Shown piece after piece: positions 37,425 to 64,000 of a stretch of DNA of 64,000 bases (the first letter of the stretch is position 1; the number at the start of each line of letters is the position of its first letter). A model generated the notes under the pieces. The model was given only the letters and a program-made list of their open reading frames with translations. It made no database searches and was not told the origin of the DNA. Source of the DNA: Nocardiopsis sp. YSL2 (lineage in GTDB: Bacteria > Actinomycetota > Actinomycetes > Streptosporangiales > Streptosporangiaceae); NCBI RefSeq assembly GCF_030555055.1, contig NZ_JAMOAO010000001.1:744001-808000 (forward strand), given 5' to 3'. The translations under genes were made by a program, and so were the position numbers.

Positions 37425-37501
<77 letters not shown>

Positions 37502-39882: not shown

Positions 39883-40125
39883 ATGAGCGACCCCTACCGC
39901 TTCGCGCAGAGCCCAGGCGACGCCGGAGGGCGTCGCGACGACGCTCCGGCAGGGGGCCGGTTCGCGGTGAGGGCCGTACTGTGGCTGCTGATCCTCCTCG
40001 GCGCCACGGCCAACGCGGTCACGTCCTTCGGCGGCTTCCATCCGCTGATCAGTGTGGGTTTCGGACTGTTGACGGTCCTGTGCATCGTCCTTCTCGTCGT
40101 GCACCACGTGCGCCACCGCAAGTAG
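39883..40125 (+). CDS. Small two-helix membrane protein
   Basis: An 80-residue protein with a polar N-terminus (MSDPYRFAQSPGDAGG), two hydrophobic helices (AVLWLLILLGATANAVTSF and LISVGFGLLTVLCIVLLVVHHV) and a short basic tail. The ATG at 39883 has CAGGAGATGGC upstream. It is divergent from the two-component system and could be its target or accessory. No family was recognised. Confidence 0.75.
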   Translation: MSDPYRFAQSPGDAGGRRDDAPAGGRFAVRAVLWLLILLGATANAVTSFGGFHPLISVGFGLLTVLCIVLLVVHHVRHRK

Positions 40126-40849: not shown

Positions 40850-42208
40850 GTGATCGAAAACGTTTCGCGACTGTTCGAGGACCTGGCCCGAGATTGCCTG
40901 TCCCCCGGGGCCCAGCTGTCCATCTACAAGGACGGTGAGCTGCACGAGTTCACCACGGGAGTCGAGCGGGCCGGCACCGAGCGCCCCGTCACCCCCCGTT
41001 CGCGCTTCGCCTACGGATCGGTCTCCAAGATCTTCACCGCCGCCCTGGTCATGCAGCTGGCCGAGGACGAGGAGATCGACCTCGACACTCCCGTGAGCGA
41101 GTACCTCCCCGCCCGCCGGCCCGCCGCGGGGCGCCCGGCCGGTGCGGTGACCGCGCGCCAGCTCCTCAGCCACACCGCAGGCCTGGTCTCCGACCACGAC
41201 GAGGGCCCGCTCCGCTCCGCGTCCCTGCACCGCCAGGCCGCCTCCCTGCTCGAACAAGGCCCGGTCGGCACCCCCGGCACCGCCTTCTCCTACTCCAACA
41301 GCGCCTACTCCCTGGCCGCCTACCTGGTCGAGGCCGTCACCGGACAGGACTGGTGGGAGACGCTGGAATCGCATCTGGTCCTGCCCTCCGGACTGGATCT
41401 GGCCTTCGTGCACGACGCGCGCGACCCCGACGCCGTCCCGGCGACCGTCAGCGGACACACCGTCGACCTCCCCTCTCGGACGGTCACGCCGGTGGACTTC
41501 TACGTCGAGCCCGCGCTGGCCCCGGCGGGCGGCCTGGCCGGAAGCGCCACCGACCTGGTCAACTTCGGCCGCGCCTTCATGACCTCAGACGACGCGGCGC
41601 TGGACATCGACATCGCCGACCCGCGGACGCTGCACGAGATGGGGCGTTCCGTCCCCGCCGCCGACCCGTTCGGGCTGGCCGACGGCTGGGGCGCGGGCTG
41701 GGCCCTGCACCTGGCCGGCGACCGGCTCTGGTACGGCCACGACGGCACGCTCGACGGCGGTACCTGCAACGTCCGGGTGGACCCCGACGGACGCACGGCC
41801 CTGGCCCTGACCACCAACGGCACGTCCGGCCTGCGCTTCTGGGAGGAGCTGGTCACCGGTCTGCGCGAGCTGGGCCTGGACGTGGGCCACTACCGGCAGC
41901 CGACGCCCCGTAACCGATCGGCGGCCCCCGCTGAGGCGATCACCGGCCGCTACGTCAACGGCGACCTGGCGGTGGACGTCACCCGGCTCGGCTCCGACGA
42001 GTTCTGGTTCAGCCTGCCCAACGGCTTCTCCGGACCGATGACGACCACCTCCGACCTGCACTTCTCCGTTTCCATGGACGATGCCGGCGGCATGTCGTTC
42101 AGCGGCCGGTTCCTGCGCGACCCGCATGAGCCCGACTCGATCGCGTCGATGCAGTACAACGGCCGGGCCCTGCGCCGGACCCCGCTGCCGGTCCGTTCCC
42201 GCGCCTGA
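40850..42208 (+). CDS. Stand-alone penicillin-binding-protein-type thioesterase (SurE-like trans-acting peptide cyclase)
   Basis: A 452-residue cytoplasmic serine hydrolase of the beta-lactamase/PBP fold with no signal peptide. The catalytic SxxK is S57-V-S-K60 (AYGSVSKIFTAAL), the YxN motif is Y148-S-N150 (FSYSNSAYS), and H297-D-G replaces KTG (WYGHDGTLDGG). Residues about 365-452 form a lipocalin-like C-terminal domain (ITGRYVNGDLAVDVTRLG...GMSFSGRFL). Size, missing leader and motif spacing agree with PBP-type thioesterases such as SurE, which release and head-to-tail cyclise peptides from NRPSs lacking their own TE domain. It lies 99 bases upstream of an NRPS gene, and neither visible synthetase shows a TE. 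The GTG at 40850 follows GGGAGATGAC. A periplasmic DD-peptidase is unlikely without a leader. Confidence 0.82.
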   Translation: MIENVSRLFEDLARDCLSPGAQLSIYKDGELHEFTTGVERAGTERPVTPRSRFAYGSVSKIFTAALVMQLAEDEEIDLDTPVSEYLPARRPAAGRPAGAVTARQLLSHTAGLVSDHDEGPLRSASLHRQAASLLEQGPVGTPGTAFSYSNSAYSLAAYLVEAVTGQDWWETLESHLVLPSGLDLAFVHDARDPDAVPATVSGHTVDLPSRTVTPVDFYVEPALAPAGGLAGSATDLVNFGRAFMTSDDAALDIDIADPRTLHEMGRSVPAADPFGLADGWGAGWALHLAGDRLWYGHDGTLDGGTCNVRVDPDGRTALALTTNGTSGLRFWEELVTGLRELGLDVGHYRQPTPRNRSAAPAEAITGRYVNGDLAVDVTRLGSDEFWFSLPNGFSGPMTTTSDLHFSVSMDDAGGMSFSGRFLRDPHEPDSIASMQYNGRALRRTPLPVRSRA

Positions 42209-42307
42209 CGCCGCGCCCTGGCGCCGCTTCCGGCCACCGAGGTCCCCCTCGCCCCGCGGCCCCTGTCACCGGCCGGCCTCCTCCCTCCAGAACCCCAGGA
42301 GTAGATC

Positions 42308-45300
42308 GTGCTGTCCCCCCAGGACTCGTCCGACCGCACCTTCCCGGCGCTCTTCGCCGAGCGGTCCGCCCAGCGCCCCGAGGCGGTCGCGCTGTCGACT
42401 GAGGATGAGACGCTCACCTACGCGGAACTCTCCGCCCTCGTCGAGCGGCGGGCCCGCGGACTCGCCCGGCACGGCGTCCGCCCCGGGGACACGGTCGGGG
42501 TGTGCCTCGACCGCGGTCGCGAACTGGTCGTCTGCCTCCTCGCCGCCATGCGGGCCGGAGCCGCCTACCTCCCCCTGGACCCCGCCTACCCGGCCGAGCG
42601 CCTGGCGTACATGCTCTCCGACTCCGGGACGGACCTGGTCCTCACCGACGCCGCCTCGGCCGCGTCGCTGCCCGGGGGGGTCCGGGCCCTGACCGCCTCG
42701 GAGGTCGAGGGGGCCGAGCCGCTCCCCGACACCCGTCCCCTGCCCGACGACGTCGCCTACGTCATCTACACCTCCGGATCCACCGGCCGTCCCAAGGGCG
42801 TGCTGGTCACCCACCGGGGCGTGGCCGACCTGGCCGCCACGCAACGGGTCCGCATGGAGGTCGCCCCCGAGTCCCGGGTCCTGCAGTTCGCCTCGCCGAG
42901 CTTCGACGCCTCGGTGTTCGAGGTGTGCATGGCCCTGCTCAACGGGGCCGCCCTGGTCGTCCTGCCCCGGCACCTGCTGCTCGGCGAGGCGCTGGTGGCG
43001 ACCCTGCGCGACCACCGGATCAGCCACGTGACCCTGCCCCCGGCCGTGCTGCCGGGTCTCTCGCCGCAGGGCCTGTCGGACCTGCGGGCGGTGATGGTGG
43101 CGGGCGAGTCCTGCCCGGGCGAGATCGTGGACCTGTGGGCCCGCGGACGCCGGATGTACAACGGCTACGGGCCCACCGAGGCGACCGTGTGCGCGACGAT
43201 GAGCGCGCCCCTGTCCGGTGACGCGGTGCCTCCGATCGGCCGGGCCGTCGACGGCACCACGGTCCACGTTCTGGACGAGCGGCTCCGCCCGGTCGGGCCG
43301 GGCGGCACCGGGGAGCTCTACATCTCCGGTGCCGGACTGGCCCGCGGCTACCACGGCCGGTCCGGTCTCACCGCGGCCCGCTTCGTCGCCGACCCGTTCG
43401 GGCCCGCGGGGTCGCGGATGTACCGGTCCGGCGACGTCGTGCGCGTGCGCCCGGACGGCGACCTGGAGTTCCGCGGCAGGAGCGACGACCAGGTCAAACT
43501 GCGCGGCTTCCGGATCGAGCCGGGCGAGGTCGAGACCGCCGCGACCCGGGTCCCGGGAGTGGCCAACGCCGCCGTCCTGGTGCGCGAGGACCGCCCCGGC
43601 GTGCGCCGCCTGGTGGCCTACGTGGCCGGGGACCCCCACCGGCCCGTGCCGGTCGGGGAGCGGGTGCGCGCGGCCCTGGCCGAGGCGCTGCCCGCCCACA
43701 TGGTGCCGTCCGCGGTGGTGGCGCTGGAGGCTCTGCCCACCACCCCCAACGGCAAGATCGACCGCGCCCTGCTGCCCGTCCCGGAGGAGGCCGTCGCGGG
43801 ACCGGAGTACGTGGCCCCGCGCGAGGGCGCCGAACGGGTGGTCGCCGAGGAGTTCGCCTCCGCCCTGGGACTGGACCGGGTCGGTGCGCACGACGACTTC
43901 TTCGCGCTGGGGGGCGACTCGATCCTCGCCGTCCGCGCCCTGTCCCGCGTCGAGGCCCGCCTGGGCACGGCCCTGGACCGCCGGTCGGTGTTCACTCTGC
44001 CGACCCCGGCCCTGCTGGCGGCCCAGGGCGTGGGCGCCGCGGGGACCGTGCGGCCGATCGCCCGCACCGACCGGGACCGGCCCCTGCCCCTGTCGGCGGC
44101 GCAGCGCCGCCTGTGGTTCCTCCACCAGCACGACCCGGGCAGCACCGAGTACTACACGGGCAGCGCCTACCGGCTGACCGGGCGGCTCTCGGTCCGCGCG
44201 CTGCGGGACGCCCTCACCGCGCTACAGCGCCGGCACGAGGCCCTGCGCACCACCTACGCCACCACCGACGACGGACCCGTGCAGCTGGTCCGCGAGCCGT
44301 GGGACGGCCACGACCTGCTGGCGCGGTGCGATCTGAGCGGCACGGACCGGCCGGGAGGCGAGCGGCTGGCCGCGGTGCTCACCGCCGAGGTCGAGCGGCC
44401 CTTCGACCTCGTGGACGGCACCCCCTTCCGCGCCCTGCTGGTCCGGCTCGACGAGGACGAGCACGTGCTCGTGCTCAGCGCGCACCACATCGCCTGTGAC
44501 GGCTGGTCGGTGGACATCATCGGCCGGGACCTGGCGGAGCTGTACCGGGCCGCGGCGGACGGGGCACCGAGCGGGGCGGCCGGATCGGAGCGGGTCGACT
44601 ACGCCGACTTCGCGGTCTGGGAACAGGGCCGCTGGAGCGCGCACGAGGTGCGCGACCGCCTGGCGTACTGGACGCGCGAACTCGACGGGGCACGCCCTCT
44701 GGAGGTGCCCACCGACCGGCCCCGCCCCGCCACGCGGACGACCGCGGGCGCGGTGCACCGGCTGGACCTGGGCCCCGATCTGACCGGGGCGCTCAAGGAT
44801 CTGGGGCGGCGCAGCGGATCGACCCTGTTCACCACGCTCACCGCGCTCACGCAACTGCTGCTGTCCAGCGCCTCGGGCAGCCGGGACGTCACCCTCGGTG
44901 TGGCCTCGGCCGGGCGCGACCACCACCAGGTCGACGACATGGTCGGGTTCTTCGTCAATCCGGTCGTGGTCAGATCCCGGATCGATCCCGCCGCCACGGT
45001 CGGGACCCTCCTCGACCAGGTGCGCCGCACCGTCCTGGCCGCGCTCGACCACGAACTGCCCTTCGAACGGGTCGTGGACGCGGTGGCCACCGACCGCGAC
45101 CCGAGCCGGACCCCGCTCTTCCAGGCCCTCATGGTGCTCCAGAACGCCCACTCCGGGGAACTCGGCCTGCCCGGACTGGACGCGCGCCCTCTGGACCTGC
45201 CGCGAACGTCCTCCCTGTTCGACCTGGTCTTCGAGTTCACGGAGCGGGACGGGGGGCTGCGGCTCACGGTCGAGTACAACACCGACCTGTACGACGGGGA

Positions 45301-48300
45301 CCGGGTCGCCGGGCTCGCCGAGGGTCTGCGGCTGATCGCGGGCCTGCTGGTGGCCGACGCCGACCTGCCGGTGGCGCGGATCGACGTCCGCCCGGAGTCG
45401 GAGCGGCGCGCCCTCACCTCCTGGGAGGGGCACGGCCCGGTGGGTGCCACCGCCTCGGTCCCGGACGTGTTCGCCGAACAGGTCGCCCGCGATCCCGCGG
45501 GCGTGGCGGTCTCCGGTCCGGCCGGGGAGCTGTCCTACGCCGAACTCGACGCGGCCTCGGCCGACCTGGCCGTGCGCCTGCGCGTGCACGGAGCGGGAGC
45601 CGAGTCCCCGGTCCTGCTGGTCCTGGAACGGGGACCGCACGTGGTGACGGCGATGCTCGCGGTACTGCGCGCGGGTGCCGCCTACGTCCCGGTCCACGCG
45701 GACGACCCGGCCGAGCGGGTGGGGCGGCTGGCGGAGGAGACCGGGGCTGTCTGCGCGGTCACCGACGCGGTGTCCGCCGAACGCCTGCCGAACCGCCTCG
45801 GCCTGCCCGTCGTGCGCCTCGACGGCGTGGCCGGAACCGTTCCGGCGGAGGACGGGTCCGACCCCGGTGGCACCGCCTCCACCGCGGACGCCGACGCCGA
45901 CGCGGTCCACGTGGCTCCGGAGCACCTGGCCTACGTGATGTTCACGTCCGGCTCCACGGGCGTACCCAAGGGCGTGGCCGTCACGCACGACGACATCGTC
46001 CGGCTGGCGCGCGACCGGCGCTGGCGCGGTGGCGGGCACGACCGGGTGCTCTTCCACGCCTCGCACGCCTTCGACGCGGCCACCTACGAGATCTGGGTAC
46101 CCCTGCTCAACGGGGGGACGGTCGTGGTCGCCCCGCCCGAACGCCTGGACGCCGAGGGGTTCGCCGCCGTGGTCGAGCGACACGGTGTCACGGGCACGTT
46201 CGTGACCTCTTCGCTGTTCAACCTGTACGCCTCGCAGGCACCCGGCTGCTTCGCCGGGCTCCGGGAGGTGCTCACCGGGGGCGAGGCCGCCAACCCCGGT
46301 GCTCTGGAGCGCGTCCGCCGGGCGTGTCCGCACACCCTGGTCGCCAACGTCTACGGACCGACCGAGGCGACCACGTACGTCACCCGGTTCCCGTTGGAGG
46401 GCACGGGACCGGTCCCGGAGCCGGTACCGATCGGCGGTCCGCTCGACGGCACCCGGCTGCACGTCCTGGACGGGCTGCTTCGACGCACCCCCGCGGGTGC
46501 CGTGGGCGAGTTGTACATCGGTGGCGCGGGTGTGGCGCGCGGGTACTGGGGGCGGCCGGGACTGACCGCCGAGCGGTTCGTCGCCGACCCGTTCGGGTCG
46601 GGCGGTCGCCTCTACCGCACGGGCGACCTGGTGCGCTGGAACCGCGACGGCCGACTGGAGTACGTCGGCCGCGCCGACGCCCAGGTCAAGCTGCGGGGCT
46701 TTCGGATCGAACTCGGCGAAGTCGAGTCGGCGCTGCTGCGCCGTCCCGAGGTGGCCGAGGCGGTGGTGCTCGTCCACCGTTCGGAGTCGGGCGTGCGACG
46801 TCTGGTCGGCTACGTCGTGGGCGAGCGGGGACGCCTGTCCGAGGACGCGGCGGAGGAGGTGCGGGCCGCACTGGCCCGGGAGCTGCCGGCGTACATGGTG
46901 CCCCAGGTGCTGGTGGCGCTGGAGGCGATGCCGTTGAACGCCAACGGCAAGGTGGACCGGCGGTCCCTGCCCGAGCCGTCCGCCGAGAGCGGGGGTGAGA
47001 GCTTCACGGCCCCGCGGTCGGAGACGGAGCGGGTACTGGCCGAGGTGTTCGCCTCCGTGCTCGGTGTGGACCGCGTCGGCGTGCACGACGACTTCTTCGC
47101 CCTGGGCGGCGACTCGATCCTGAGCATCCAGCTGGTCTCCCGCGCCCGCCGCGCCGGGATCGCCCTCACGTCCAAACAGGTCTTCTCCCACCCTTCCGTC
47201 GCGGCCCTGGCCGAGGTCGCCGAACCCGAGAGCGGCGCGGCACCCGCTCCGACCGGACCGGTCCACGGGCCGGTGACCGCGACCCCGATCATGCGGTGGT
47301 TCCTGCGGACACACCCCGTCGCACCGGGGCACTTCAACATGTCGGTGCTGCTCGACCTGGTGGCGGACTTCGACGCCGGCGCCCTACCGCGGGTGGCCGC
47401 GGCCCTGCTGGAGCACCACGACATGCTCCGCCTCCGGATGGACGCCTCCGGGGCCTTCCGTATCGCCGGGGCCGACGGCACCGAGCCGCCCATCGAGACG
47501 GTGGACCTGTCCGACCTGCCCGGGGAGCGGGCCGAGGAGGTGCTGTCGGAACGCGTCCACGCGGCGCAGGCCTCCCTGGACCTGGCGTCCGGGCCGGTGG
47601 TGCGCATGGTGCTCTTCACCGGAGGAACCACCCCCCGCCTGCTCATCACCGCCCACCACCTCGTCGTCGACGGCGTCTCCTGGCGCGTCCTCCTCGAAGA
47701 CCTCACCACCGCCTACCGCCAGGTCCGCGAGGGCCGACCGATCGACCTCGGCCCCCGCACCACCCCCTTCCCGGTCTGGGCCGACCGGCTCGCCGAGGCC
47801 GTCCGCGAGGGCCGCTTCGACGACCAGGCCGATCACTGGACCGCCCTGGCCGACGTCGCCACCGACCTGCCCCGCGACCTCGACGGGCAGGGCAACGGCC
47901 CCATCTCCTCCCAGCGCACCGTCTCCGCCCACCTCCCGGCCGAGACCACCCAGGCCCTCCTGCGCGAAATCCCCCCGGTCTTTCGCACCCAGGTCAACGA
48001 CCTCCTCCTCGCCGCCCTGGGCCGGGTCCTCACCGCCTGGGCCGGACACGACCGCCTGCTCATCGACCTCGAAGGCCACGGCCGCGAAGACCTCTTCGAC
48101 CACACCGACCTCTCCCGCACCATCGGCTGGTTCACCACCCTCTTCCCCCACGCGGTGGGCGGCGTCCCCGACTGGGCCCACCAGATCAAGGCCACCAAGG
48201 AGGCCCTCCGCGCCGTCCCCGACCGCGGCCTCGGCTTCGGCGCCCTACGCCACCTGGGCGACGACGACCGGCGCGCCCACCTGGAACGGATCCCCGCTCC

Positions 48301-51300
48301 CGAGGTCAGCTTCAACTACCTCGGCCGCTTCGACACCCGCACAGAGACCGTGTACACCGGTCTGCGCTTGAACGCGGGCGGCGAGTACGACCCTCGGGAG
48401 GAACGCGCCCACCTGCTGGACGTGGTGGGCCGGATCGAGGACGACGCCCTCGTCTTCGACTGGATCTTCTCCGACCGGGCCCATGACCCGGCGACCATGG
48501 CCGCTCTCGCGGAGCGATTCGTCGACGCCCTGCGTGACCTGGTGGAGTTCTGCCGTCGGGAGGGTGTCGGCGGCGCCACACCCTCCGACTTCCCCCTCGT
48601 CCGCCTCGACCAGGCCGCGGTCGACCGCCTCGCCGCACCCGGAGTACAGGACATCCTGCCCCTGACCCCCATGCAGCAGGGCATGCTCTTCCACTCCCTG
48701 GCCGAGGAGGGTTCCGGGGCGGCCTACCTCGAACAGCTCACCATCCGCCTGGACGGGATCGAGGACCCCGCACGACTCGCCCGCGCCTGGCAGCACGTGG
48801 TCGACTCCACCCCCGCCCTCCGCTCCGTCCCCGCCTGGGACGCACTCGACACCCCCGTCCAACTCGTCCACGAACACACCCCCCTGCCCGTCACCGTCCT
48901 GGACTGGCGCGACCTGGACCCCGACGACCAGGAACACGCCCTGGCCGACCTGCTCACCCAGGACCAGCGAACCGGCATCGACCTCGCCCGCGGCCCCCTC
49001 ATGCGCGTCGCGGTCGCCCGCCTCACACCCTCGCGGGTGGCGCTGGTGTGGACCTTCCACCACCTGCTCCTGGACGGCTGGAGCCTGCCGCTCGTCCTGT
49101 CCGACGTCTTCACCGCCTACCGCGGCACACCCCTCCCCACCCGACCGCCCTTCCGCGACCACCTCGCCTGGACCGCCCGGCAGGACGAACAAGCCGGACT
49201 CCACCACTGGCGCGAGACCCTCACCGGCATCGAATCCCCCACCCCGCTCCCCTACGACCGCGCACCCGCGCAGGTCCACGGAACCAGCTCCTCCGCCCGG
49301 ACCGGGCACACCCTGTCCGCCGGCCTGACCGATCGGGTCCACCGGTTCGCGCGTGAGCAGGGCCTGACCGTGAACGCCCTCGTCCAGGGAGCCTGGGCCC
49401 TCCTGCTCTCCACACACTCCGGCGACACCGACATCGTCTTCGGCGCCACCACCTCCGGACGCCCCGCCGACCAACCCGACGTCGAGAACACCATCGGCAT
49501 CTTCATCAACACCCTGCCCGTACGCATCCACATCACCCCCCACACACCCGTCGCCACCTGGCTCCACACCCTCCAGGACACACTGACGGAATCCCGCCAG
49601 TACGAGCACCTGCCCCTCACCCGGCTCCAGGCGCTCTCACCCCTGCCCGGCGACACGCCCCTGTTCAACAGCCTGGTGGTGTTCGAGAACTACCCCGTGG
49701 ACGAACGGGCCGCCCAGGACCACGGCATCACGGTCCTCGGCGTCACCGCCGACGAGGCCACCAACTACCCGCTGACCCTGGTCGCCTACGACGGCGACCG
49801 GATCGACACCCAGCTCCGCTACGACCCCGACCTCTTCGACGCCGCGACGGCCGAGCGTCTACTGGCCCGCCTCGCCTTCCACGTCGAGTCCCTGGTCACC
49901 GCCCCCACGAGGCCGCTGCGGCAGTTGCCGCCGCAGACCGGCGCCGAGCGCGACGTCGTCACCGCGTGGGGAGACGGCGGACCCTCGCGGGACGAACGCA
50001 CACTCGTGGACCTCTTCGCCGAACAGGTGCGGCTGCGCCCCGACGCCCCCGCGCTCATCGGCGACGGCGCGGAGTGGAGCTACGCCGAACTGGACGCGCG
50101 CAGCGACGCCCTGGCCGCCCGCCTGCGCGGGCTCCGCGCCGGGCGCGGCTCGATCGTCGGTGCCTCGCTCCGGCGCGGACCCGGCCTGATCACCGCCCTC
50201 CTCGCGATCGTCAAGGCCGGTGCCGCCTACCTGCCCGTCGACCCCGAATACCCGGCCGAGCGCCAGGACTTCATCGTGCGCGACTCCGGGGTGCGCCTGC
50301 TGATCACCGAGGAGGACACGGAGCGCGCACAGGAGCGGCCGGACGCCGCCGTGCCGACACGCCTCACGCTCGCCGACCTGGCCGAGCGGCCGGTGCCCGC
50401 GGCGGACACGGCCGTCGCGCCCGGCCCGGACGACCTCGCCTACGTCATCTACACGTCCGGGTCGACCGGGACCCCCAAGGGCACCATGGTGACCCACCGG
50501 GGGATCGGCGCGTTCGCCGCGTCCATGGCCCACCGCTTCGGCACCGAACCCGGCTGGCGGGTCCTGCAACTGGCCTCGTCCAGCTTCGACGCCTCGGTGA
50601 TGGAGGTGCTGATGGCCTTCGGCGCGGGGGCCGCTCTGGTGGTGCCCGAGCCCGGCCCGCTGGTCGGCGAGGAACTGGCGGAGGCGCTGCTGCGCCACGG
50701 CGTCAACCTGACCATCATCCCGCCGTCCGTGCTGGCCTCCGTGCCGCCCGGGGACTTCCCGGACCTGCGCACGCTCGTGGTCGGCGCGGAGGCGTGCCCC
50801 GCCGAACTGGTCCACCGGTGGGCGCCCGGCCGCCGCATGGTGAACGCCTACGGGCCGACGGAGATCACCATCGCCGCCTCGCTCAGCGACCCGCTGGCAC
50901 CGGGGCACGCCCCGCCGATCGGCCGTCCCGTCCAGGGCGCGCGGCTGCACGTCCTCGACCGTCTCCTGCGGCCGGTCCCGACCGGTGTCGTCGGTGAGCT
51001 CCACGTCGGTGGCGCGGGTGTGGCGCGCGGGTACTGGGGGCGGCCGGGACTGACCGCCGAGCGGTTCGTCGCCGACCCCTTCGGCTCCGGCGGACGCCTC
51101 TACCGCACCGGCGACCTGGTGCGCTGGAATCACGACGGCCAGTTGGAGTACGTCGGCCGCGCCGACGCCCAGGTCAAGATCCGGGGCCTGCGCATCGAAC
51201 CCGGCGAGGTGGAGTCGGCACTGGTCGCCCTGCCCGGGGTCCGGCAGGCCGCGGTCACGGTTCGCCGGGACGCTCCCGGCGGCGCGGCCCTGGTCGGCTA

Positions 51301-54300
51301 CGTGGCGGGACAGGCCGACCCCGCCCAGGTGCGGGACCGGCTCGTCCGGACGCTGCCCGCGCACTTGGTCCCGGCGGTCATCGTGCCGGTGGAGACCATG
51401 CCGCTCACGCCCAACGGCAAGACCGACCACCGGGCGCTGCCCGCACCCGACTGGGCGGCGATGGCCGCTGCGTACGTGGCCCCGCGGTCGGAGTCGGAGC
51501 GGGTACTGGCCGAGGTGTTCGCCTCCGTGCTCGGTGTGGACCGCGTCGGCGTGCACGACGACTTCTTCGCCCTGGGCGGCGACTCGATCCTGAGCATCCA
51601 GCTGGTCTCCCGCGCCCGCCGCGCCGGGGTCACGCTCACCTCCACACAGGTCTTCTCCCACCCTTCTGTCGCGGCCCTGGCCGAGGTCGCCGAACCCGAG
51701 AGCGGCGCGGCACCCGCTCCGACCGGACCGGTCCACGGGCCGGTGACCCCGACCCCGATCATGCGGTGGTTCCTGGACTCGCGTGCGGAGGGCCCGGACG
51801 GGTTCGTCATGTCGGTGCTGCTGGACCTGGTGGCGGACTTCGACGCCGGCGCCCTGCCGCGGGTGGCCGCGGCCCTGCTGGAGCACCACGACATGCTCCG
51901 CCTGCGCCTCTCCGGCGACGGAACCCGGATCCTTCCTGAGGAGAGGGTCGAAGCGGTCCTGACGACGGTCACGGACTCCGGCGTGACGGCGGTGGAGGAG
52001 CACACCGAGCGCCTCCGTGAGCAGATCGACCTGGTGTCCGGGCCGGTGGTGCGCATGGTGCTCTTCACCGGAACAACCACCCCACGCCTGCTCATCACCG
52101 CCCACCACCTCGTCGTCGACGGCGTCTCCTGGCGCGTCCTCCTCGAAGACCTCACCACCGCCTACCACCAGACCACCAGCGGACAGCCCATCGACCTCGG
52201 CCCCCGCACCACACCCTTCCCCACCTGGGCCGACCGCTTGGCCGAAGCCACCAGAGAAGGCCGCTTCGACCACGAAACCGACCACTGGACGTCCCTCGCG
52301 GACGTGCCCGCCGACATCCCCCGCGACCACCCCAGCCAGGACAACGGCCCCGTCTCCTCACAGCACACCGTGTCCGCACAACTCTCGACCGAGACCACAC
52401 AAGCCCTTCTGCGCGAGATCCCACCGGTCTTCCGCACCCAGGTCAACGACCTCCTCCTCGCCGCCCTCGCACACGTCCTGACCTCCTGGACCGGACACGA
52501 CCGCCTCCTCATCGACCTCGAAGGCCACGGCCGCGAAGACCTCTTCGACCACACCGACCTCTCCCGCACCATCGGCTGGTTCACCACCCTCTTCCCCATC
52601 GCACTGCACACCGCCCCCGACTGGGCCACCCGGATCAGAACCACCAAGGACATGCTCCGCGCCCTGCCCAACCACGGCCTCGGCTACGGCGCCCTGCGCC
52701 ACCTCGGCTACGACCACCAGCGCACCGCACTACACCGCATCCCCGAACCACACATCAGCTTCAACTACCTCGGCCGCTTCGACACCCGAACGGAGACCGG
52801 AGCGCCCTACACCGCCATGGCCCTGGGCGGCGCAGACTCCCCCGGTACCGACCGGGCGCACCTGCTGGACGTGGTGGGCCGGGTGGTCGACGAGCGGCTG
52901 GTCCTCGACCTGGCCTACTCCGACCTGGTGCACGACGAAGGCACCGTCCAGGACCTGGCGGACGGCCTGGCCGGGGCGCTGACCGACCTGGTGGAGTTCT
53001 GTCGGGGGGAGGGCGTCGGCGGCGCCAGTCCCTCCGACTTCCCGCTCGTGCGCCTCGACCAGGCCGCGGTCGACCGCCTCGCCGCACCCGGAGTGCAGGA
53101 CATCCTGCCCCTCACCCCCATGCAACAGGGCATGCTCTTCCACTCCCTGCTGGACGAGGGCTCCTCGTACCTGGAGCAGATCACCGTGCGTCTGGACGGG
53201 ATCGAGGACCCCGCACGACTCGCCCGCGCCTGGCAGCACGTGGTCGACTCCACCCCCGCCCTCCGCTCCGTCCCCGCCTGGGACGCACTCGACACCCCCG
53301 TCCAACTCGTCCACGAACACACCGCCCTGCCCGTCACCGTCCTGGACTGGCGCGACCTGGACCCCGACGACCAGGAACACGCCCTGGCCGACCTGCTCAC
53401 CCAGGACCAGCGAACCGGCATCGACCTCGGGACAGGACCGCTGTTGCGCATCACCGTGGTGCGGTTGGCCCCGGCCCGGGTGGCGCTGGTGTGGACCTTC
53501 CACCACCTGCTCCTGGACGGCTGGAGCCTGCCGCTCGTCCTGTCCGACGTCTTCACCGCCTACCGCGGCACACCCCTCCCCACCCGACCGCCCTTCCGCG
53601 ACCACCTCGCCTGGATCACCCGGCAGGACGAACAAGCCGGACTCCACCACTGGCGCGACACCCTCACCGGCATCGAATCCCCCACCCCGCTCCCCTACGA
53701 CCGCGCACCGGAGGACGTACGGACGGCCCGTTCCAGGGTCCGTGTCGAGACGCACCTGTCCGAGGAGCGCTCCGCGGCCGTGCACCGGTTCGCGCGTGAG
53801 CAGGGCCTGACCGTGAACGCCCTCGTCCAGGGAGCCTGGGCCCTCCTGCTCTCCACACACTCCGGCGACACCGACATCGTCTTCGGCGCCACCACCTCCG
53901 GACGCCCCGCCGACCAACCCGACGTCGAAAACACCATCGGCATCTTCATCAACACCCTGCCCGTCCGCATCCACATCACCCCCCACACACCCGTCACCAC
54001 CTGGCTCCACACACTCCAGGAACAGCAGGTCACCGCTCGGCAGCACGACTACCTGCCGCTGTCGCGGATCCAGGGCGAGGCCGGGCTGCCGGGTGACACC
54101 CAGCTCTTCGACAGCCTGGTGGTGTTCGAGAACTACCCCGTGGACGAACGGGCCGCCCAGGAGCACGGCATCACGGTGGTGGACACGGACGCCGAGGAAG
54201 CCACCAACTACCCGCTCGCGCTCAGCGCGTACTCCACCGACCGGATCCGTCTGCTCATCGGCTACGAGCCCGACCACTTCGACGCCGACACCGCCGACCG

Positions 54301-56260
54301 GCTGCTCGACGACCTGTCGGAGATCCTCAACGCACTGGTCCAGGATCCGGACCGCCCCCTGGGGGCCGTGGGCGGCGCGGACGCCTCCGCCACCGCCGCC
54401 TTCACCGACGGCGCCGCACTGGACGTGCCCGAACGCACGGTGACCGAACTGTTCGCCGAACAGGTGCGGCTGCGCCCCGACGCCCCCGCGCTCATCGGCG
54501 ACGGCGCGGAGTGGAGCTACGCCGAACTGGACCGGCGGGCCGAGGAGGTGGCCGACCACCTGCGTGCCCACGGGGCCACCCACGAGTCCCGGGTGTTCCT
54601 GTCGATGCCGCGCTCGCCGCGTGTGGTCGCCGCCATGCTGGGGGTCCTCAAGGCGGGGGCCGCCTACGTCCCGCTGCACGACACCGTCCCCGCCGAGCGG
54701 ATCACGGCCCTGGCCGCCGACAACGGCGTGGACACCGCGATCGCCGACCCGGAGGCCCTGGACCTGTTCACCGGGGCCGCCCCGATCACCGTGCACCGGT
54801 ACGACGCCGACGGGATCACCGCCGTGGCCATGGAACGCACCGGCCCGCCCGCCGCCACCGGCGGCGCGGATCGCGCCGACCGGGCGGACGGGACCCCGGC
54901 CACCGCCGCACAGGTGCGGTCCCTGCCCTCCTCGGCCGCCTACGTCATGTTCACCTCCGGGTCCACGGGCACGCCCAAGGGCGTGGTGGTCGACCACCGC
55001 AACATCGTGGCCCTCACGCGCGACGGCCGGTGGCCGGGGGCGCACGATCGGATCCTGTTCCACTCCCCGCACGCCTTCGACGCGGCCACCTACGAGATCT
55101 GGGTGCCCCTGCTCAACGGCGGCACCGTCGTGGTGGCCCCCGACCACGGTGTCACCTCCGACATGGTCCGGCAGGGCGTGGCCGAGCACGGGGTGGGCGC
55201 GGTGTTCCTCACCACCGCCCTGTTCAACCTCTTCGCCCAGCAGGACCCCGGCTGCTTCGCCGGGCTGCGACAGGTGTGGACCGGCGGCGAGGCCGCCGAC
55301 CCGGCCTCGTTCACCCGTGTGCTGGAGGCCTGCGAGGACACCGAGGTCGTGCACGTCTACGGACCGACGGAGACCACCACCTTCGCGACGTGCACCCCGA
55401 TCGGCCCGGACCGGGCGCGGGACGCCGACTGCCCGATCGGCCGACCGATGGACGGTACCCGCACGCACGTGCTCGACGCGGCTCTGCGGCCGGTCCCCGT
55501 CGGCGCGGTCGGCGAGCTCTACATCGCCGGCGACGGCGTCGCACGCGGCTACGACCGCCGGCCGGGACTGACCGCCGAGCGGTTCGTCGCCGACCCCTTC
55601 GGCTCCGGCGGACGCCTCTACCGCACCGGCGACCTGGTGCGCTGGCAGGCGGACGGGCAGATCGACTTCGTCGGCCGCGCCGACGGCCAGATCAAGCTCC
55701 GCGGGTTCCGGATCGAGCTCGGCGAGATCGAGAGCGCACTGGCGGCGGGCGCGGGCGTCGCACAGGCCGCGGCGGCCGTGGTCGCCCCGCCCTCCGGCGG
55801 CCGGGTCCTGGCCGGATACCTGACCGAGTCCGCGCCCGGCGCCGTGGACACCGCGGCGGTGACCGAGGAGCTCGCCCGGTCACTGCCCGCGTACATGGTC
55901 CCCTCGGTCCTGACCGTCCTGGCGTCGCTTCCGCTCAACGCCAACGGCAAGGTCGACCGCCGGGCGCTGCCCGAGCCGGACTGGGCGCGGATCACCGAGA
56001 GCCGGTACGTCGAGCCGAGCACCCCCACCGAGGAACTCGTGGCCGAGGTCTGGGCCGACGTGCTCAAGCTCGACCGCGTCGGGCGCGGCGACAACTTCTT
56101 CGACGTCGGCGGCGACTCGGTGAAGAGCATCCAGGTCGTCGGGGAGATCCGGGAGGCCCTCGGCGTCACCGTGCCCACCCGGGCCCTGTTCGACCACCAG
56201 ACCGTCCAGGCCTACGCGGCAGCGGTCGAGGACGCGCTCATGAGCGAACCGGCGGACTGA
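42308..56260 (+). CDS. Nonribosomal peptide synthetase 1, four modules: A-T / C-A-T-E / C-A-T-E / C-A-T
   Basis: A 4650-residue multimodular synthetase. Module 1 is A (YTSGSTG near 154) and T (Ser538) with no starter C domain, so it initiates with a free amino acid. Module 2 is LCL-type C (H726-H727-x3-D731-G), A (near 1212), T (S1603), E (H1783-H1784-x3-D1788-G, with EGHGRE and FNYLGRF). Module 3 is DCL-type C (H2251), A (near 2715), T (S3093), E (H3266). Module 4 is DCL-type C (H3732), A (near 4215), T (S4604). It ends 46 residues past that Ser without E or TE. Hand-aligned specificity codes: A1 DAFTMAGVCK (aromatic, Phe-like); A2 DAYFLGVTYK (Ile/Val-like); A3 DAMIVGAIAK (hydrophobic, unclear); A4 DAYFWGVTFK (Ile/Val-like). 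The GTG follows CCAGGAG. The T-E-C blocks of modules 2/3 and 3/4 are highly alike in DNA. Confidence 0.96.
46990..54000 (+). repeat. Duplicated T-E-C block inside NRPS1
   Basis: The segment from the end of A2 through C3 (about 47000-49560) and that from A3 through C4 (about 51475-54010) are highly similar, with long stretches identical at DNA level. Examples lie around 47640-47700 versus 52085-52150, 48060-48150 versus 52500-52590, and 49370-49560 versus 53810-54000. The offset is about 4440-4470 bases, shifting slightly through small indels. The A domains between them are much less alike, pointing to module duplication or gene conversion. Confidence 0.85.
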
Positions 56261-56352
56261 CCCCTCGCGGCGCGGGCCGTCCGGTCCGCGTCCGGCGCCC
56301 TGTCCCCGCATCCTCCCAGCCACACACTCCGACCACGGCAGGAGCACGAACC

Positions 56353-59300
56353 ATGAACGACGCGCACGGAGACGCCAGCGGCACGGACCCCGATCGGGCC
56401 CGGCTGCGGGAAGAGGTCCGGCGCAGGCTGCGCGACCGGGGCAGACGGACCGACGAGGTTCCCGTCGTCGACAGGGACGCCCCCGCCGTGCTGTCCTTCG
56501 CCCAGCAGCGGCTGTGGATCCTGGACCGGATCGAGCCGGGCCGGGCCGACTACAACTCCGGCTTCGCCCTGGACCTGCGCGGCGACCTCGACACCGTGGC
56601 GCTCCGCCTGGCCCTGACCGCCCTGGTGCACCGGCACGAGTCGCTGCGCACCACGTTCACCGAGGTCGACGGGGAGGGCCGCCAGGTCGTCGGCCCGCCC
56701 GCGCCGGTCGCCCTCCCCGTCACGGAGGTCCACGGCGGGGAGGACGAGCTCGCCCGCCTCGTCGACCACCACTACGCCGCCCCCTTCGACCTCGCGGCCG
56801 GGCCGCCGCTGCGCGTGCGCCTGCTGCGGGCCGGACCGCGCCGCCACGTCCTGCTCGCCGTCCTGCACCACATCATCACCGACGGCTGGTCGCTGGGCAC
56901 GCTCCAGAGCGAACTCGACCGCCTGTACACGAGCGCGTGCGAGCATCCCGGCCTGACCGGCGCCGACCTCGCCGCGACCCTGGAGCCGCTCCCGTTCCAG
57001 TACGTCGACTACGCCGCCTGGCAGCGCGGCCGGCTCAGCGGGGACGCCTACGAGCGCTCGCTCGACCACTGGCGCAAGCGCCTGAACGGCGCGCGGCCGC
57101 TGGAGATGCCCACCGACCGCCCCCGTCCACCGGCGCGGAGCATGCGGGGGGCCGGCCACGCCTTCCGCCTGCCCTCCGGCCTGGTGACGCGGCTCACCCG
57201 GGTGGGGCGCGAGCACAACGCCAACCTCTACATGGTCCTGATGACCGCCGCCCGGATCGCCATGGCGCGCTGGACCCGCGACGACGACGTGGTCCTGGGC
57301 ACCGTCACGGCGGGCCGGGAGGACGCCCGTCTGCACGGCCTGACCGGCTTCTTCGTCAACACCCTCGCCCTGCGCGGCCGGGTCGACGAGACGCTCTCCT
57401 TCTCCGGCAGCCTCATGCGCACCCGCGACGACGTCCTGGCCGACTTCGACCACGCCGAGGTCCCCTTCGACGCCGTCGTGGACGCGGTCCTGACCGAACG
57501 CGACCCGGCGGTCCCACCGCTGGTGCAGGCCGCGGTCATCATGCAGAACGCCGGGGGCGGCGGGACGCCGTCCCTGGGCGGCCTGGACGTGCGGACGTTC
57601 CCGGTGCGGCGCGAACACGCGGTGTTCGACCTGACCCTGGAGTTCCAGGAGCAGGACGGGGAAGTCGCCGGATCCGCCGAGTACAACACCGACCTGTTCG
57701 ACGAGGCGACCGTCGCCCGGTTCGTCTCCGACCTGGTCGACGTGTTGGAGGGCGCGGGTGACAACCGTCCCCTGCGGGCCCTGCGGCCGGGCGGGCACGA
57801 GGGCGCGGGCGAGCTGTCCGGCCCCGCCGGCCCCCGTCCGCGCACTCTGACCGAGCTGGTGGCCGAGCAGGTGGCCGCCCGCCCCGAGGCCCCGGCCCTG
57901 GTCGGGTCCGACACCGAAGTCTCCTTCGCCGAGCTCGACGACCGGGCCGCCCGCGTCGCGGGGTACCTGCGCGCGCACGGTGTGCGGCGGGGCGACCGGG
58001 TCGGCGTGTGCCGGGAGCGCGGGCCGGAGTCGGCCGTGCTGTTCCTGGCCGTGGTGTACGCCGGTGCCGTCCACGTGCCGCTGGACCCGGACTATCCGGT
58101 CGACCGGCTGGCCTACATGGCCGACGACGCCGGGCTGTCCGCGGTCCTGGCGGCCCCCGGAACGGCCGACCGGTTGCCCGGATCGGTCCGCGTGCTGCAT
58201 CCGGAGGACGGCCGGGAGGGCGACCCCCTGCGCGAGGCGGTCACCGTGCACGACCCGGCGTACATGATCTACACCTCCGGGTCCACCGGGCGCCCCAAGG
58301 GCGTGGTCGTCCCTCATCACGGCATGGCGGCTCTGGCCATGACGCAGGGGCGGCTGATGGAGGTCGCTCCGGGCTCCCGGCTGCTGCAGTTCGCCTCCCC
58401 GAGTTTCGACGCGTCCGTCGCCGAGCTGCTGGTCGCGCTGCTCAACGGGGCCGCGACCGTCCTGCTCCCCCGCGCGGACCTGGCCGGGTCCGGGCTCCCC
58501 GCGGCGTTGAGCGGGCACCGGATCAGCCACGTCACCCTGCCCCCGGCCCTGCTGCCGAGCCTGGACCCGGCCGACCTGGGCCCGGTCGAGCACCTGCTGG
58601 TGGCGGGCGAGTCCTGCCCCGGCGAGCTGGTCGAGCGCTTCTCCCGGGGCCGTCGGATGTACAACGCCTACGGGCCCACCGAGTCCACGGTGTGCACCAC
58701 GATGAGCGCCCCGCTGTCCGGACCGGGCACGCCGCCCATGGGCGCGCCGGTCGCCGGGACCAGGGTCCACGTGCTCGACCGCTGGCTGCGCCCTGTGCGC
58801 GACGGCGTCCCCGGTGAGCTGTACATCAGTGGCGACGGGCTCGCACAGGGGTACTGGAACCGGGCCGGACTGACCGCCGGGCGCTTCGTCGCCGACCCCT
58901 TCGGGCCGCCCGGGTCGCGCATGTACCGGTCCGGCGACGTGGTGCGCCGCCGCCGCGACGGGGAGCTGGAGTTCCTCGGGCGGGCGGACGACCAGGTCAA
59001 GGTGCGCGGGCACCGCATCGAACCGGGCGAGGTGGAGGCCGCGCTCACCGGCCTGCCCGAGGTCGGCCGGGCGGTCGTCGTCGTCGACACGGGCGGCTCC
59101 GGGCGCAGGCTCGCCGCCTACGTGGTGCCCGCCGCCGGGGCCGCGCCCTCGCCGGCGGAACTGGCCGAACGGGCCGCCGGTGTGCTGCCCGGGTACATGG
59201 TCCCCGCCGCGTTCGTCACCGTGGACCGCATCCCGCTGACCGCCAACGGCAAGACCGACCGCCGGGCGCTGCCGCCGGTCGACTGGGCCGGACAGTCCCG

Positions 59301-62300
59301 GGCCGCCCACACCGAGCCGCGTACCCCCGCCGAACGCGGACTCGCCGCGCTGTGGTGCGACCTGCTCGGGTTGGAGCGCGTCGGGGTGCACGACGACTTC
59401 TTCCGGATCGGCGGGGACTCCGTCGGGGTGGTCAGGATGGTGGCCCGCGCCGCGGACGCCTTCGGCACGCGGCTGCCGGTGCGCACGGTCTTCGACCACC
59501 CGACCGTCGCCGAGCTGGCCGCGATGCTGTCCGCCGGAGACGACGGCACGGCCGGCGGCGACGGGGCGGCCTCCGGCCCCGTACCCGTGCCGCGCGGGCC
59601 CGACCTGCCGCTGTCGGCCGCCCAGCGCCGCCTGTGGTTCCTCGACCGGTACGAACCCGGCGGCGCGGAGTACAACTCCGGTGGCGCGCTGCGGCTCTCC
59701 GGTCCCCTGGACGCGGCCGCCCTGACCCGCGCCCTGGACGCCCTCGTCCACCGGCACGAGTCGCTGCGCACCACGTTCACCGAACACGACGGTCAGCCGG
59801 TCCAGGTCATCGGCGACCCCGCGGGCGCCCCCGCCCCGGAGACCGCCGACCTGGAAACCGTTCCGGAACCGGACCGGGAGGCCGCCCTCGACGCGGTGCT
59901 CGCCGAGTTCGTGCACCGGCCCTTCGACCTGGCACGGGGTCCGCTCTTCCGGTCCCTGCTGGTCACCCTGGGCCCCTCCGAGCACGTGCTCGCCCTGGGC
60001 ATCCACCACATCGTCGTGGACGCCTGGTCGCTGTCGGTCCTGACCCGGGAGCTCGGCGCGCTCTACCGGACCGCCGTGCGGGACGGGTCCGGCACCGGGC
60101 CGCGGGCGCTCGCCGAGCGGGCCGGGCTGCGCCCGCCCCGCCTGCAGTACGCCGACTTCGCGGCGTGGCAGGACTCCTACATGGACTCCGAGCCCTTCCA
60201 GGAGCGGATCGACCACTGGCGGGAGCTGTTGGCCGGCGCCGAGCCCCTCGACCTGCCCACGGACCGCCCGCGGCCCCCGGTGCGCCGGGGCCGGGGCGCG
60301 ACGCGCACCTTCGAGATCCCGGAGGAGACCCTGGCGGCGGTCCGGGAACTGGAGGCCACCGCCGGCGCCACCCTCTTCATGGTGCTGACCGCCGCCGTGC
60401 AGGTCGTCCTGTCCCGCTACACCGGGCAGCGCGACATCGTCCTGGGGACGGTCACCTCCGGCCGGGACCGGGCCGAGCTGGAGGACGTGGTGGGGTTCTT
60501 CGTCAACACGCTCGCGCTGCGGATGACGGTGGACGAGGGGCTCACCGGCCGCGCACTGCTCGCGACCGTGCGCGAGACCCTCCTCACCGCCTTCCAGAAC
60601 GGCGACGTCCCCTTCGACACGGTGGTGGACGCCGTCGCCCCGCGCCGCGACCCCTCCCGCCCCACGCTGGTCCAGGCCGTGGTCGCGCTGCAGAACGCCC
60701 CGGGGCAGACCTGGGAGATCGACGGGCTGACCGTGGCCGAGCAGCCACTGACCAGGCACAGCTCCCTGTTCGACCTCAGCGTGGACTTCTACGAGGACGG
60801 CGGGCGGCTGCGCGGCTCGGTGGAGTACGACACGGACCTGTTCGATCCGGAGACCGTCGACCGCTTCACCGAGCACGTGCGCCTCCTGCTCGAAGGTCTC
60901 GCGACGGCCCCCGACGCGCCGGTGTACCAGGTGGACCTGATGTCGGCGGCCGAGCGCGCCGCCCTCCTGCCCGCCGGGCGAGCGCCCGGGGCGCAGGCAC
61001 CGGCCGCCGGGGCCGGCCCGGTCGGCACAGGCCACGTCCTGGACGGGCTGTACGCGCACGGGGCCGACCTGCCGGCGCTGACCGCCGGTCCCGACACCCT
61101 GTCCTTCGGCGCGCTGAACGAGCGCGTCGACCACCTGGCCCGGCGCCTGGCCGGTGCGGGTGTCGGCCCCGGCGACCGGGTGGCCACGGTGCTGCCCCGC
61201 ACCGCCGAGGCGGTGGTCGGCCTCTTCGCGGTGCTGCGTGCCGGTGCGGCCTACGTCCCGATCGACCCGGCCGCCCCGGCCCAGCGGGCGCGCACCGTCC
61301 TGGAGCACGCGCGCGCCGGACGGATCCTCACCACGCGGGACACCGAGGAGTCCGCCCGGCGGGCCCTGGGCGGGGACGTGCCGGTCACGGTGGTGGACGC
61401 GGAGCCGGTCGAGGCCGCGGGGGCACCGGCCGCGCCGTTCAGCGACGCCGAGCGCACACGCCCCCTGCACGGCGACGACCCGGCCTACGTGATGTTCACG
61501 TCCGGCTCGACCGGGACACCCAAGGGGGTCGTGGTCACCCACGCCAACCTGTGCGCCATGGCCGCCGCCTACCGGGCCGCGGTGCTCGACGGGCCCGAGG
61601 CCGACGGCCGACGGCTCACGGCCGCGCACCTGGCCTCGTGGACCTTCGACGCCTCCTGGGACCCGTTCGTCTGGCTGTCGGCCGGCCACCACCTGCACGT
61701 GGTCGACGAGCGCACCCGCACCGACGCCGAGGCGCTGTGCGAGTACCTGGACGAGCACCGGGTGGACTACCTCGACACCACCCCGTCCTATCTGGCCCAG
61801 CTGGTCTCCGCCGGACTGCTGGCGGAGGGGCGGCACCCGCTCGCCGTACTGACCGTGGGTGCCGAGGCGCTGGACGCGGTCCTGGCCGAGCGGCTCGCGT
61901 CGGCGGGGGTCGGTGCCGTGTACAACTTCTACGGGCCGACCGAGAACACCGTGAACAGCACGGTCTGGCGCGTTCGCCCGGGTGAGCGCCCGCTGATCGG
62001 CCGACCGGTCGCCGGGACCCGCGCCGTGGTCCTCGACTCCTGGCTGCGACCCGTACCCCCGGGTGTGCGCGGCGAGCTCTACCTGGCGGGGCCGTCGCTG
62101 GCCCCGGGATACGCCGGCGCTCCCGGGGCGACCGCCGAGCGCTTCGTCGCCGACCCCTCGGGCACGGGGGAACGGCTCTACCGGACCGGGGACGTCGTCC
62201 GCTGGACCGCCGGCCTCGAACTGGAGTTCCTGGGCCGCGACGACGACCAGGTCAAGATCCGGGGGTTCCGGATCGAGCTCGGCGAGGTCGAGTCGGTGCT

Positions 62301-64000
62301 GGCGGCGCTGCCGGGCGTCCGCTCGGCGGCCGTCGTGGTCCGGGAGGACCGGCCCGGCGTCCGGCGGCTGGTCGGCTACGTCGCACCGGAGAGGGGTTCC
62401 TCGGGCGTGGACGCCGCGGCCGTCCGGGAGGGAGCCGCCCGGCGCCTGCCCGACTACATGGTGCCGACCGCCGTGGTCGTCCTGGCGGACATCCCGCTCA
62501 ACACCAACGGCAAGACCGACCGCCGGGCGCTGCCCGCGCCCTCCGACGACGCCTTCGAGACCGCCGGGTACGTCCCGCCGACCGGTTCGACCCAGGTCCT
62601 GCTGGCGCGGGCCTGGGGCGAGCTGCTGGGCATCGAGAAGGTGGGCGCCCACGACAACTTCTTCGACCTGGGCGGCGACTCGATCCTGAGCATCCAGCTG
62701 GTGTCGCGGGTGCGTGCCGCCGGGCGGGAACTGACCTCGAAGGACGTCTTCGTGCACCAGACCGTGGACGCGCTGGCGGCGGCCATGGACGCACGGGACG
62801 ACGCGGGTCCGGACCGGGAGGGCGGCGCGACCGGGCCGGTCACCGGTGCGGTCGCCCTCACTCCAGTGCAGCGCTGGTTCCTCGACACGCATCCGCGCTC
62901 TCCCGAGCACTTCGACATGTCCCTGCTGGCGGAGACCGCGCCGGGCAGCGACCCGCACCTGGTCGCCCGTGCCGCCGAGCACGTCCTGTCCCACCACGAC
63001 ATGCTCCGGCTCCGGGTCGAACGGACCGGGGAGGGCGTGCGCCAGCACCTGGACGCGGAGGCCGCCCCCGGGGCCGTCCGGGTCGTGGACGCGGCCGGGT
63101 CGCCGGAGTCCCGCGTCGAGGAACTGCTGGTCCGCGAGGCCGGCCGGGAGCGGCCCGCGACGCGCTTGGCCGAGGGGCCGCTGTTCGAGGCGGTGGTCGT
63201 GGACACCGGAGAGGCCGGCCGCCACCGGCTGCTGCTGTCGGCCCACCACATGGTGGTGGACGGGGTGTCCTGGCGGGTGGTCCTGGAGGACCTGGCCACC
63301 GCCTACGAGCAGCTTCGCGACGGGCGACCGGTGTCCCTGGGCGCGAAGACCACCCCGTTCCCGGTGTGGGCGGAGCGGCTGACCACGCTCACCCGGGAGG
63401 GCGGGTTCGACGACGACCTGCCCGCCTGGACCGCGATCGCCTCCGCCGGCGCCGCGGCCGCGTCCCTGCCCGTGGACCTGACGGAGGGCGCCAACGACGT
63501 GGCCTCCCAGCGCGTGGCCGCTTCGGAGCTGTCGGAGGAGGAGACCGGGGCCCTGCTCTCACGGGTGCCGGGGGCCTTCCGGTGCCGGATCGACGACGTG
63601 CTCCTGGCCGCGCTCGGCCGGGTCCTGGCCGGGTGGAGCGGTTCGGGGCGGATCCTGGTCGAGAAGGAGGGGCACGGGCGCGAGGACCTGTTCGAGGACG
63701 TGGACCTGTCCCGCACCGTCGGCTGGTTCACCACCATCCACCCCGTCCTGCTGGAGCTGCCCGAGGGGGCCGACTGGCCGCGGACGGTGGCCGCCGTCAA
63801 GCGCCAGTCACGGAGGGCTCCGCGCGGGATCGGGTTCGGCGCGCTGCGGTACCTGACGGAGGGCGAGGGCACCGAACCGCTGCGCGCGATGCCCGACCCC
63901 GCGGTCTCCTTCAACTACCTGGGCCGCTTCGGTGAGGGCGAGGGCCGCGCGGGCGGTCTCGTCCGCGGCTTCGCGCCGGTCCCGGGGCCGGACCACGCCC
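56353..64000 (+). CDS. Nonribosomal peptide synthetase 2 (5' part): C-A-T / C-A-T-E..., open at right edge
   Basis: At least 2549 residues with no stop to the end of the window. A basic N-terminal stretch ([22 protein letters not shown]) may be a docking element. Module 5 is LCL-type C (H172-H173-x3-D177-G), A (YTSGSTG near 640), T (S1023 in FFRIGGDSV). Module 6 is C (H1218-H1219-I-V-V-D1223-A1224, Ala instead of Gly), A (near 1715), T (S2110), then E (H2298-H2299-M-V-V-D-G, EGHGRE, FNYLGRF). The window ends within this E domain. Hand-read codes: A5 DAATLAAVCK (aromatic, Tyr/Phe-like); A6 DADDTGFVNK (two acidic pocket residues, possibly a basic or polar substrate). The ATG at 56353 has AGGAGC upstream, 92 bases after NRPS1. 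It carries positions 5 and 6 of the peptide. Confidence 0.95.

Follow-up and report, generated by a model that had tools for sequence, protein, structure and literature searches.

How does a nonribosomal peptide synthetase (NRPS) that begins with an adenylation domain and ends without a release domain let go of its peptide? This question is raised by a locus in Nocardiopsis sp. YSL2, whose 6.42 Mb genome is assembled in 4 contigs. We analyzed a 64,000-nucleotide stretch of this genome (the window; positions 744001-808000 of the first contig, G000:C1), in which the gene of a putative stand-alone thioesterase (TE) of the penicillin-binding protein (PBP) type (40850-42208, + strand) is followed by two NRPS genes. 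Coordinates prefixed w continue the window's numbering past its end (64000) into the sequence of the same genome. Our data suggest that these genes form a complete six-module cluster, whose product is very probably an unacylated head-to-tail cyclic hexapeptide with the PBP-type TE closing the ring.

To place the 452-residue TE, we compared it with proteins of solved structure. SurE (6ksu; E 2.7e-101) and Ulm16 (8fek; E 1.3e-73) were its closest sequence relatives, followed by a D-peptidase at 7.7e-24. Identity was 42.5% to SurE over 438 residues and 45.9% to Ulm16 over 392 residues. The original prediction, made from the letters of the window, had described a leaderless serine hydrolase with SxxK, YxN, and HDG motifs and a lipocalin-like tail. 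All three motifs were found (S57-V-S-K60, Y148-S-N150, and H297-D-G), with S57, K60, Y148, N150, and H297 invariant in 23 of 23 alignment rows, the window's row included. No leader peptide was seen by eye. In an AlphaFold model (mean predicted local distance difference test, 80.8; predicted template modeling (TM) score, 0.83), eight predicted strands at residues 366-444 make up a C-terminal lipocalin-like domain. Fold comparison of this model again ranked SurE best (E 7.3e-42, TM score 0.85/0.87), followed by Ulm16 and then an esterase (9.1e-27). The protein aligned along nearly the full length of SurE in both sequence and fold, which agrees with the proposed tail. In SurE, G235 sets the C-terminal tolerance (PMC11735501). 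Its counterpart in our alignment, on the assumption that the deposited chain carries a tag of 20 residues, is G227, also a glycine. A PHROGs scan returned three matches, of which the best was to a tail protein of phages that has lysin activity.

Phylogenetic analysis placed the TE with the same enzymes. An earlier tree of its relatives, built from 40 of 80 loci, contained the paralogues L003 and L004 as very long outgroup branches and left forks open. For a second tree, ten of 48 rows were dropped (L003, L004, the internal-stop rows L082 and L090, and six others), and SurE and Ulm16 were added. Among the resulting 40 rows, 38 PBP-type rows, including SurE and Ulm16, parted, with support of 100/99, from Escherichia coli AmpC and from a PF00144 paralogue encoded in the window's genome. 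Both outgroup rows are long branches, so this tree carries less weight than the scores. Within the PBP-type rows, the TE belongs to a 21-row clade (support 99/99) that is drawn mostly from Nocardiopsidaceae and lacks SurE and Ulm16. By sequence, predicted fold, and tree, the protein is a SurE/Ulm16-type PBP thioesterase, as had been proposed, and by analogy with these enzymes it would act by head-to-tail macrolactamization.

We then delineated the assembly line. NRPS 1 (42308-56260, + strand; 4650 residues) has the order A-T / C-A-T-E / C-A-T-E / C-A-T, where A, T, C, and E denote adenylation, thiolation (carrier), condensation, and epimerization domains. NRPS 2 (56353-64188, + strand; L006:353-8188; 2611 residues) has the order C-A-T / C-A-T-E and crosses the window end, its stop at w64188 lying 188 bases outside in the right-hand sequence from the same genome. 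Domain order in both proteins was read from motifs. Pfam identified five condensation-type, four AMP-binding, and four PP-binding stretches in NRPS 1, and three, two, and two, respectively, in NRPS 2. The A-first start, the six modules, and the E domains at positions 2, 3, and 6 that had been read from the window were all present. Because NRPS 2 ends at w64188, the line consists of exactly six modules, and further modules to the right are ruled out. The expected extension to the right thus failed for modules, of which only 188 bases lay outside, and held for an MbtH gene, transporters, and further regulators, which lie just beyond the window. Pfam found no thioesterase or reductase domain in NRPS 1 or NRPS 2, and the last E domain forms the C-terminal end of NRPS 2; the absence of a TE domain therefore extends to the sequence right of the window. 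Of the two results that would have counted against the original prediction, an integrated TE or reductase downstream and a hydrolase placed among DD-peptidases, neither was obtained.

Catalytic features of the line are intact. The carrier-domain serine is present in all six modules, and the HHxxVDGVSWR motif is unbroken in E2, E3, and E6. The C domains fall into types: C3 and C4, each following an E domain, share one sequence type, while C2 and C6 form a second, to which C5 is similar. By the signatures that we take to distinguish D- from L-accepting domains, these two types are as expected for predicted D-accepting (C3 and C4) and L-accepting (C2, C5, and C6) condensation. As a separate observation, the active site of the C domain of module 6 (60004-60024) reads HHIVVDA rather than HHxxxDG, with the DA shared by all six genomes compared.

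Residues were predicted by comparing adenylation specificity codes only. All module boundaries given here are approximate, and all modules lie on the + strand. By comparison with known code lists, the codes of module 1 (A-T; 42308-44032; DAFTMAGVCK) and module 5 (C-A-T; 56353-59592; DAATLAAVCK) resemble the GrsA Phe code DAWTIAAICK, that of module 2 (C-A-T-E; 44030-48532; DAYFLGVTYK) is Val/Ile-like, and that of module 3 (C-A-T-E; 48530-52987; DAMIVGAIAK) is Leu-like. Modules 1 and 5 are accordingly predicted to load aromatic residues, module 2 Val or Ile, and module 3 a hydrophobic residue, the last two being made D. The code of module 4 (C-A-T; 52985-56257; DAYFWGVTFK) is listed as Val (PMC9113097). 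It was also the only one of the six matched in a full-text literature search; wider strings for codes 1, 3, 5, and 6 matched nothing there. Module 6 (C-A-T-E; 59590-w64188), whose residue would also be made D, has the code DAWDTGFVNK, with an acid at position 278 and an ambiguous alignment near position 239, where a gap is needed. The seven closest A domains retrieved share 49-53% identity with that of module 6, for which no residue is predicted. Together, the codes and E domains predict the order aromatic1 - D-Val/Ile2 - D-hydrophobic3 - Val/Ile4 - aromatic5 - D-X6.

Established SurE and Ulm16 chemistry suggests how such a peptide could be made and released. Synthesis would begin at module 1 with an L-aromatic residue, free of any acyl starter. 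Each of modules 2 and 3 would add a residue that its E domain converts to D, and module 4 would pass the chain to NRPS 2. There, module 5 would contribute an aromatic residue, and the last residue, added by module 6, would be turned to D, with MbtH assisting adenylation. The PBP-type TE could then take over the D-ended peptide, transferring it from the last carrier domain to Ser57, where attack by the free amino group of L-residue 1 would close an unacylated head-to-tail ring. PBP-type TEs require an L-residue first and a D-residue last (PMC11735501; PMC7459860). The domains predict exactly these termini, as module 1 has no E domain and module 6 carries an intact E motif, and this match supports cyclization in trans.

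Relatives of the cyclase occur in other genomes, mostly beside NRPS motifs. At E ≤1e-60 they were present in 29 of 345 genomes of the order; the window's genus accounts for 13 of the 29, its own genome included. A search of contigs from named genomes recovered 116 stretches encoding cyclase relatives, of which the best 80 were kept. At 74 of these 80 loci, A, T, and C motifs occurred together in one long open reading frame (ORF) beside the TE, and 78 had at least one motif kind; L065 and L089 had no NRPS-type motif beside the TE. In ten control stretches without a TE (15-20 kb), motif kinds never occurred together in one ORF, and a single motif was present in two of the stretches. Module order was read at 11 TE loci, the window's included. 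A whole six-module line was found in five (the window, G298, G099, G317, and G037) and five modules in two (G102 and G089), while four were cut by contig ends (G111, G101, G135, and G122). The terminal E motif was kept in all five six-module lines. Their codes were similar: module 1 differs in G037 (DAYFTGGTFK), and single letters vary elsewhere. Two further loci were seen during this survey. L050, whose record carries the unexpected name Actinomyces israelii DSM 43320, has an A-first NRPS and a PBP-type TE of the window's clade. L114, named Streptomyces albidoflavus NRRL B-1271, has a PBP-type TE distinct from SurE that adjoins an NRPS.

Could the hydrolase instead be an ordinary DD-peptidase, esterase, or class C beta-lactamase, serving for example in self-resistance, that lies beside an NRPS by chance? 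It does share their Pfam superfamily (PF00144, 2e-62), and class C beta-lactamase models matched it weakly. However, the best of these matches reached 62.7 bits, compared with a cut-off of 415 bits for NCBIfam bla_class_C, and the E-values of SurE and Ulm16 are better than that of the third-ranked solved structure by roughly 50 orders of magnitude or more. The grouping with SurE and Ulm16 at 100/99, albeit against long-branched outgroups, the lipocalin-like domain of the model, and the absence of a visible leader argue in the same direction. A chance neighbor also fits poorly with the complete sets of NRPS motifs found next to the TE at 74 of 80 loci and in none of ten controls, and with an NRPS that has no other release domain. 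A beta-lactamase or DD-peptidase identity was rejected on the model score, the structure matches, and the tree, and we regard this explanation as extremely improbable. Slightly less remote, and still quite improbable, is that a linear hexapeptide is released, or that an enzyme encoded elsewhere in the genome performs the release while the PBP protein edits or hydrolyzes. Surugamide F, a product of the SurE system, was first known as a linear peptide (PMC7459860). Against this stand the predicted L-first and D-last termini, which fit cyclization, the retention of the terminal E domain in all complete six-module lines, and the genome itself, where the only match at E ≤1e-60 was the cyclase gene.

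If a cyclic hexapeptide is formed, it might already be known. Nocardiopsis sp. CNX037 yields the cyclohexapeptides nocardiamide A and nocardiamide B, in which L-Tyr, D-Leu, and both D- and L-Val occur, with L-Ile as well in A (PMC6017543), and the cluster could be the missing gene set of these compounds. The predicted D-Val/Ile2, D-hydrophobic3, Val/Ile4, and two aromatic residues lend this some support. In addition, module 1 of a related line in Nocardiopsis kunsanensis is of the Val/Ile type, which would agree with the Ile/Val difference that reportedly separates nocardiamides A and B. The sixth nocardiamide residue is reportedly Trp. However, module 1 of the window is aromatic rather than Val/Ile-type, and three D-residues are predicted compared with two in the nocardiamide table (PMC6017543). 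We therefore consider a nocardiamide-type product unlikely, though the most plausible of the three alternatives. Nocardiotide A, reported as all-L and containing Ala (PMC6174345), was rejected as the product, as neither its composition nor its stereochemistry fits. A cyclic hexapeptide closed by the PBP-type TE is thus our preferred reading, and several points weigh against it. The support comes from sequence and predicted fold, and there is the small chance of linear release described above. Identity of the cyclase to characterized members is low (42.5% for SurE and 45.9% for Ulm16). The A domain of module 6 aligns ambiguously near position 239, and code letters in general can depend on the alignment: the same Nocardiopsis alborubida domain type was read as both DAYFIGGTFK and DAYAIGGTFK. 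Finally, an MbtH homologue was called in only two of five compared relatives, perhaps through gene calling.

Module loss and domain swaps are the most interesting side of this family. In Nocardiopsis sp. N85 (G102:C54; L121 and L122), NRPS 1 has three modules and the line five in all. A sliding comparison matched the N85 synthetase to modules 1 and 2 of the window into the E domain, and then to E3, C4, and A4. By this comparison, module 3 is missing in N85, with the join inside the E domain, and the predicted product is a cyclic pentapeptide. Loss is the simpler reading, since G298 and, at a greater distance, G099, G317, and G037 all have six-module lines. Within modules 2 and 3 of the window (47008-54247), the T and following C domains share stretches of 92-98% identical DNA beside stretches of 77-86%, a pattern such as gene conversion would leave. 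The near-identical stretches would allow recombination of the kind suggested for N85. In N. kunsanensis (G101:C40; L128), A1 is replaced by an A2-like domain and most of A2 by an A4-like one, with T1, C2, T2, and E2 unchanged. Nocardiopsis xinjiangensis (L041) has the same changed first code. The contigs of both species end early, and their lines were read only in part. We tentatively propose, with somewhat less than even confidence, that the Nocardiopsidaceae lines are a natural series of ring-size and residue swaps under one trans-cyclase clade. Starting from an ancestral six-module line, module 3 would have been lost in N85 when similar E domains recombined, and N. kunsanensis would have had A1 and A2 replaced by A2-like and A4-like domains, with the variants still closed, possibly on a C-terminal D-residue new to this enzyme type.

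The cluster resembles several known systems without matching any in full. Like the surugamide system with SurE, it has a stand-alone PBP-type TE, no cis TE, and a terminal E domain. In contrast to the 18 modules that serve two ring sizes there, it has six modules on two proteins. The desotamide-family systems of ulleungmycin (Ulm16) and noursamycin are similar in their hexapeptide size (the Ulm16 substrate), PBP-type TE, and two-component and transport systems, whereas the TE described here belongs to a separate, mostly Nocardiopsidaceae clade. A candidate noursamycin locus in Streptomyces noursei (L070), whose TE is 81.6% identical to Ulm16, has the codes DVAMAGAVTK, DAFWLGGTFK, and DAIMLGGIAK, which are unlike those of the window. 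The PenA system (pentaminomycin/BE-18257; Streptomyces cacaoi) also pairs a PBP-type TE with short cyclic peptides, but these are pentapeptides from two NRPSs. The S. cacaoi TE at L065, taken as PenA by name only, is nearer to SurE (62%). Closer to hand, N. alborubida (G089:C1:245000-284999; L131 and L132) has a related TE (53% identity) and a similar first NRPS 2 code, DAATLAGVCK. It differs in having five modules, with a three-module NRPS 1 on the strand opposite to the TE and a two-module NRPS 2, and in its Val/Ile-rich codes, including a Val/Ile-type last module. Streptomonospora nanhaiensis 12A09 (L055) shows the same layout as N. alborubida as far as its locus reaches.

Systems that pair a PBP-type TE with a co-linear NRPS are well established, and the chemistry predicted for this cluster is of that known sort. 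It combines a SurE-type cyclase with a predicted co-linear NRPS, the combination that defines the desotamide family (PMC7459860), with module order read from the genes. A survey counted 166 organisms with such systems (PMC7459860), so the cluster may be present, unnamed, in that network. It had been called undescribed, which stands only within the literature searched, where we found no description; the searches covered open-access articles, with most subscription journals outside, and some returned best matches only. A 2022 review describes nocardiotide A biosynthesis as still unstudied (PMC9231205), and a 2024 review counted five PBP-type TEs characterized in vitro (PMC11735501). These enzymes serve as biocatalysts for closing peptide rings. 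A complete cluster, a cyclase from a clade without SurE and Ulm16, and relatives with module loss or A-domain swaps would offer a test of ring-size and end-residue tolerance, and the cluster may provide the genes still missing for a Nocardiopsis cyclohexapeptide.

The genes flanking this core suggest how the product may be regulated and exported. The original prediction saw no cluster regulator; a two-component system nevertheless lies inside the window (about 37750-39848). Its sensor histidine kinase (38391-39848, - strand) matched Pfam Sensor (2.6e-26), HisKA_3 (2.5e-13), and HATPase_c (1.4e-8). The response regulator (37750-38394, - strand), the C-terminal part of ORF 37750-39420, has a receiver and a LuxR-type helix-turn-helix (HTH) by eye. 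A conserved small membrane protein of no Pfam family (39814-40125, + strand) adjoins the cyclase. To the right, MbtH (w64249-64461; L006:8249-8461; PF03621, 8e-26) directly follows NRPS 2 after a gap of about 60 bases. Next is a protein with weak ArsR/HTH-type Pfam matches near the cut-off (L006:8554-9513, - strand). Further right of the window, Pfam identified an ABC-2 permease with a DrrA-type ATPase and an FtsX-type permease with its ATPase, all on the - strand, and a second histidine kinase (w70861-72087, + strand) and a BTAD-type regulator (w72701-76051, - strand) are also encoded. The two-component system, the ArsR/HTH-type protein, and the BTAD-type regulator are likely controls, and the DrrAB-type and FtsX-type ATP-binding cassette (ABC) transporters likely exporters. 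The desotamide (dsa) cluster contains a winged-helix protein, a two-component system, and an ABC transporter (PMC7459860). The gene set here recalls it by description, with the kinase and ABC transporters assigned by Pfam, the response regulator by eye, and the ArsR/HTH match being weak.

Much of this surrounding is conserved. Gene-by-gene comparison suffered from mis-called genes (e.g. 64593-66872 and 69985-71910) and missed the TE of G037, which is present there (L022); conservation counts therefore rest on named genes only. Homologues of the first kinase and of the small membrane protein were found in all five compared relatives, the latter upstream of the TE. The kinase adjoins the TE in four, and its best match in G317 lies about 30 kb downstream of it. 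The FtsX permease and BTAD protein have homologues in four of the five. Conservation is lost further left, and we therefore took a trio of transfer RNA genes for Gly, Cys, and Val (37228-37501, + strand; ARAGORN) as the left border of the cluster. This trio may also mark a point of insertion or rearrangement.

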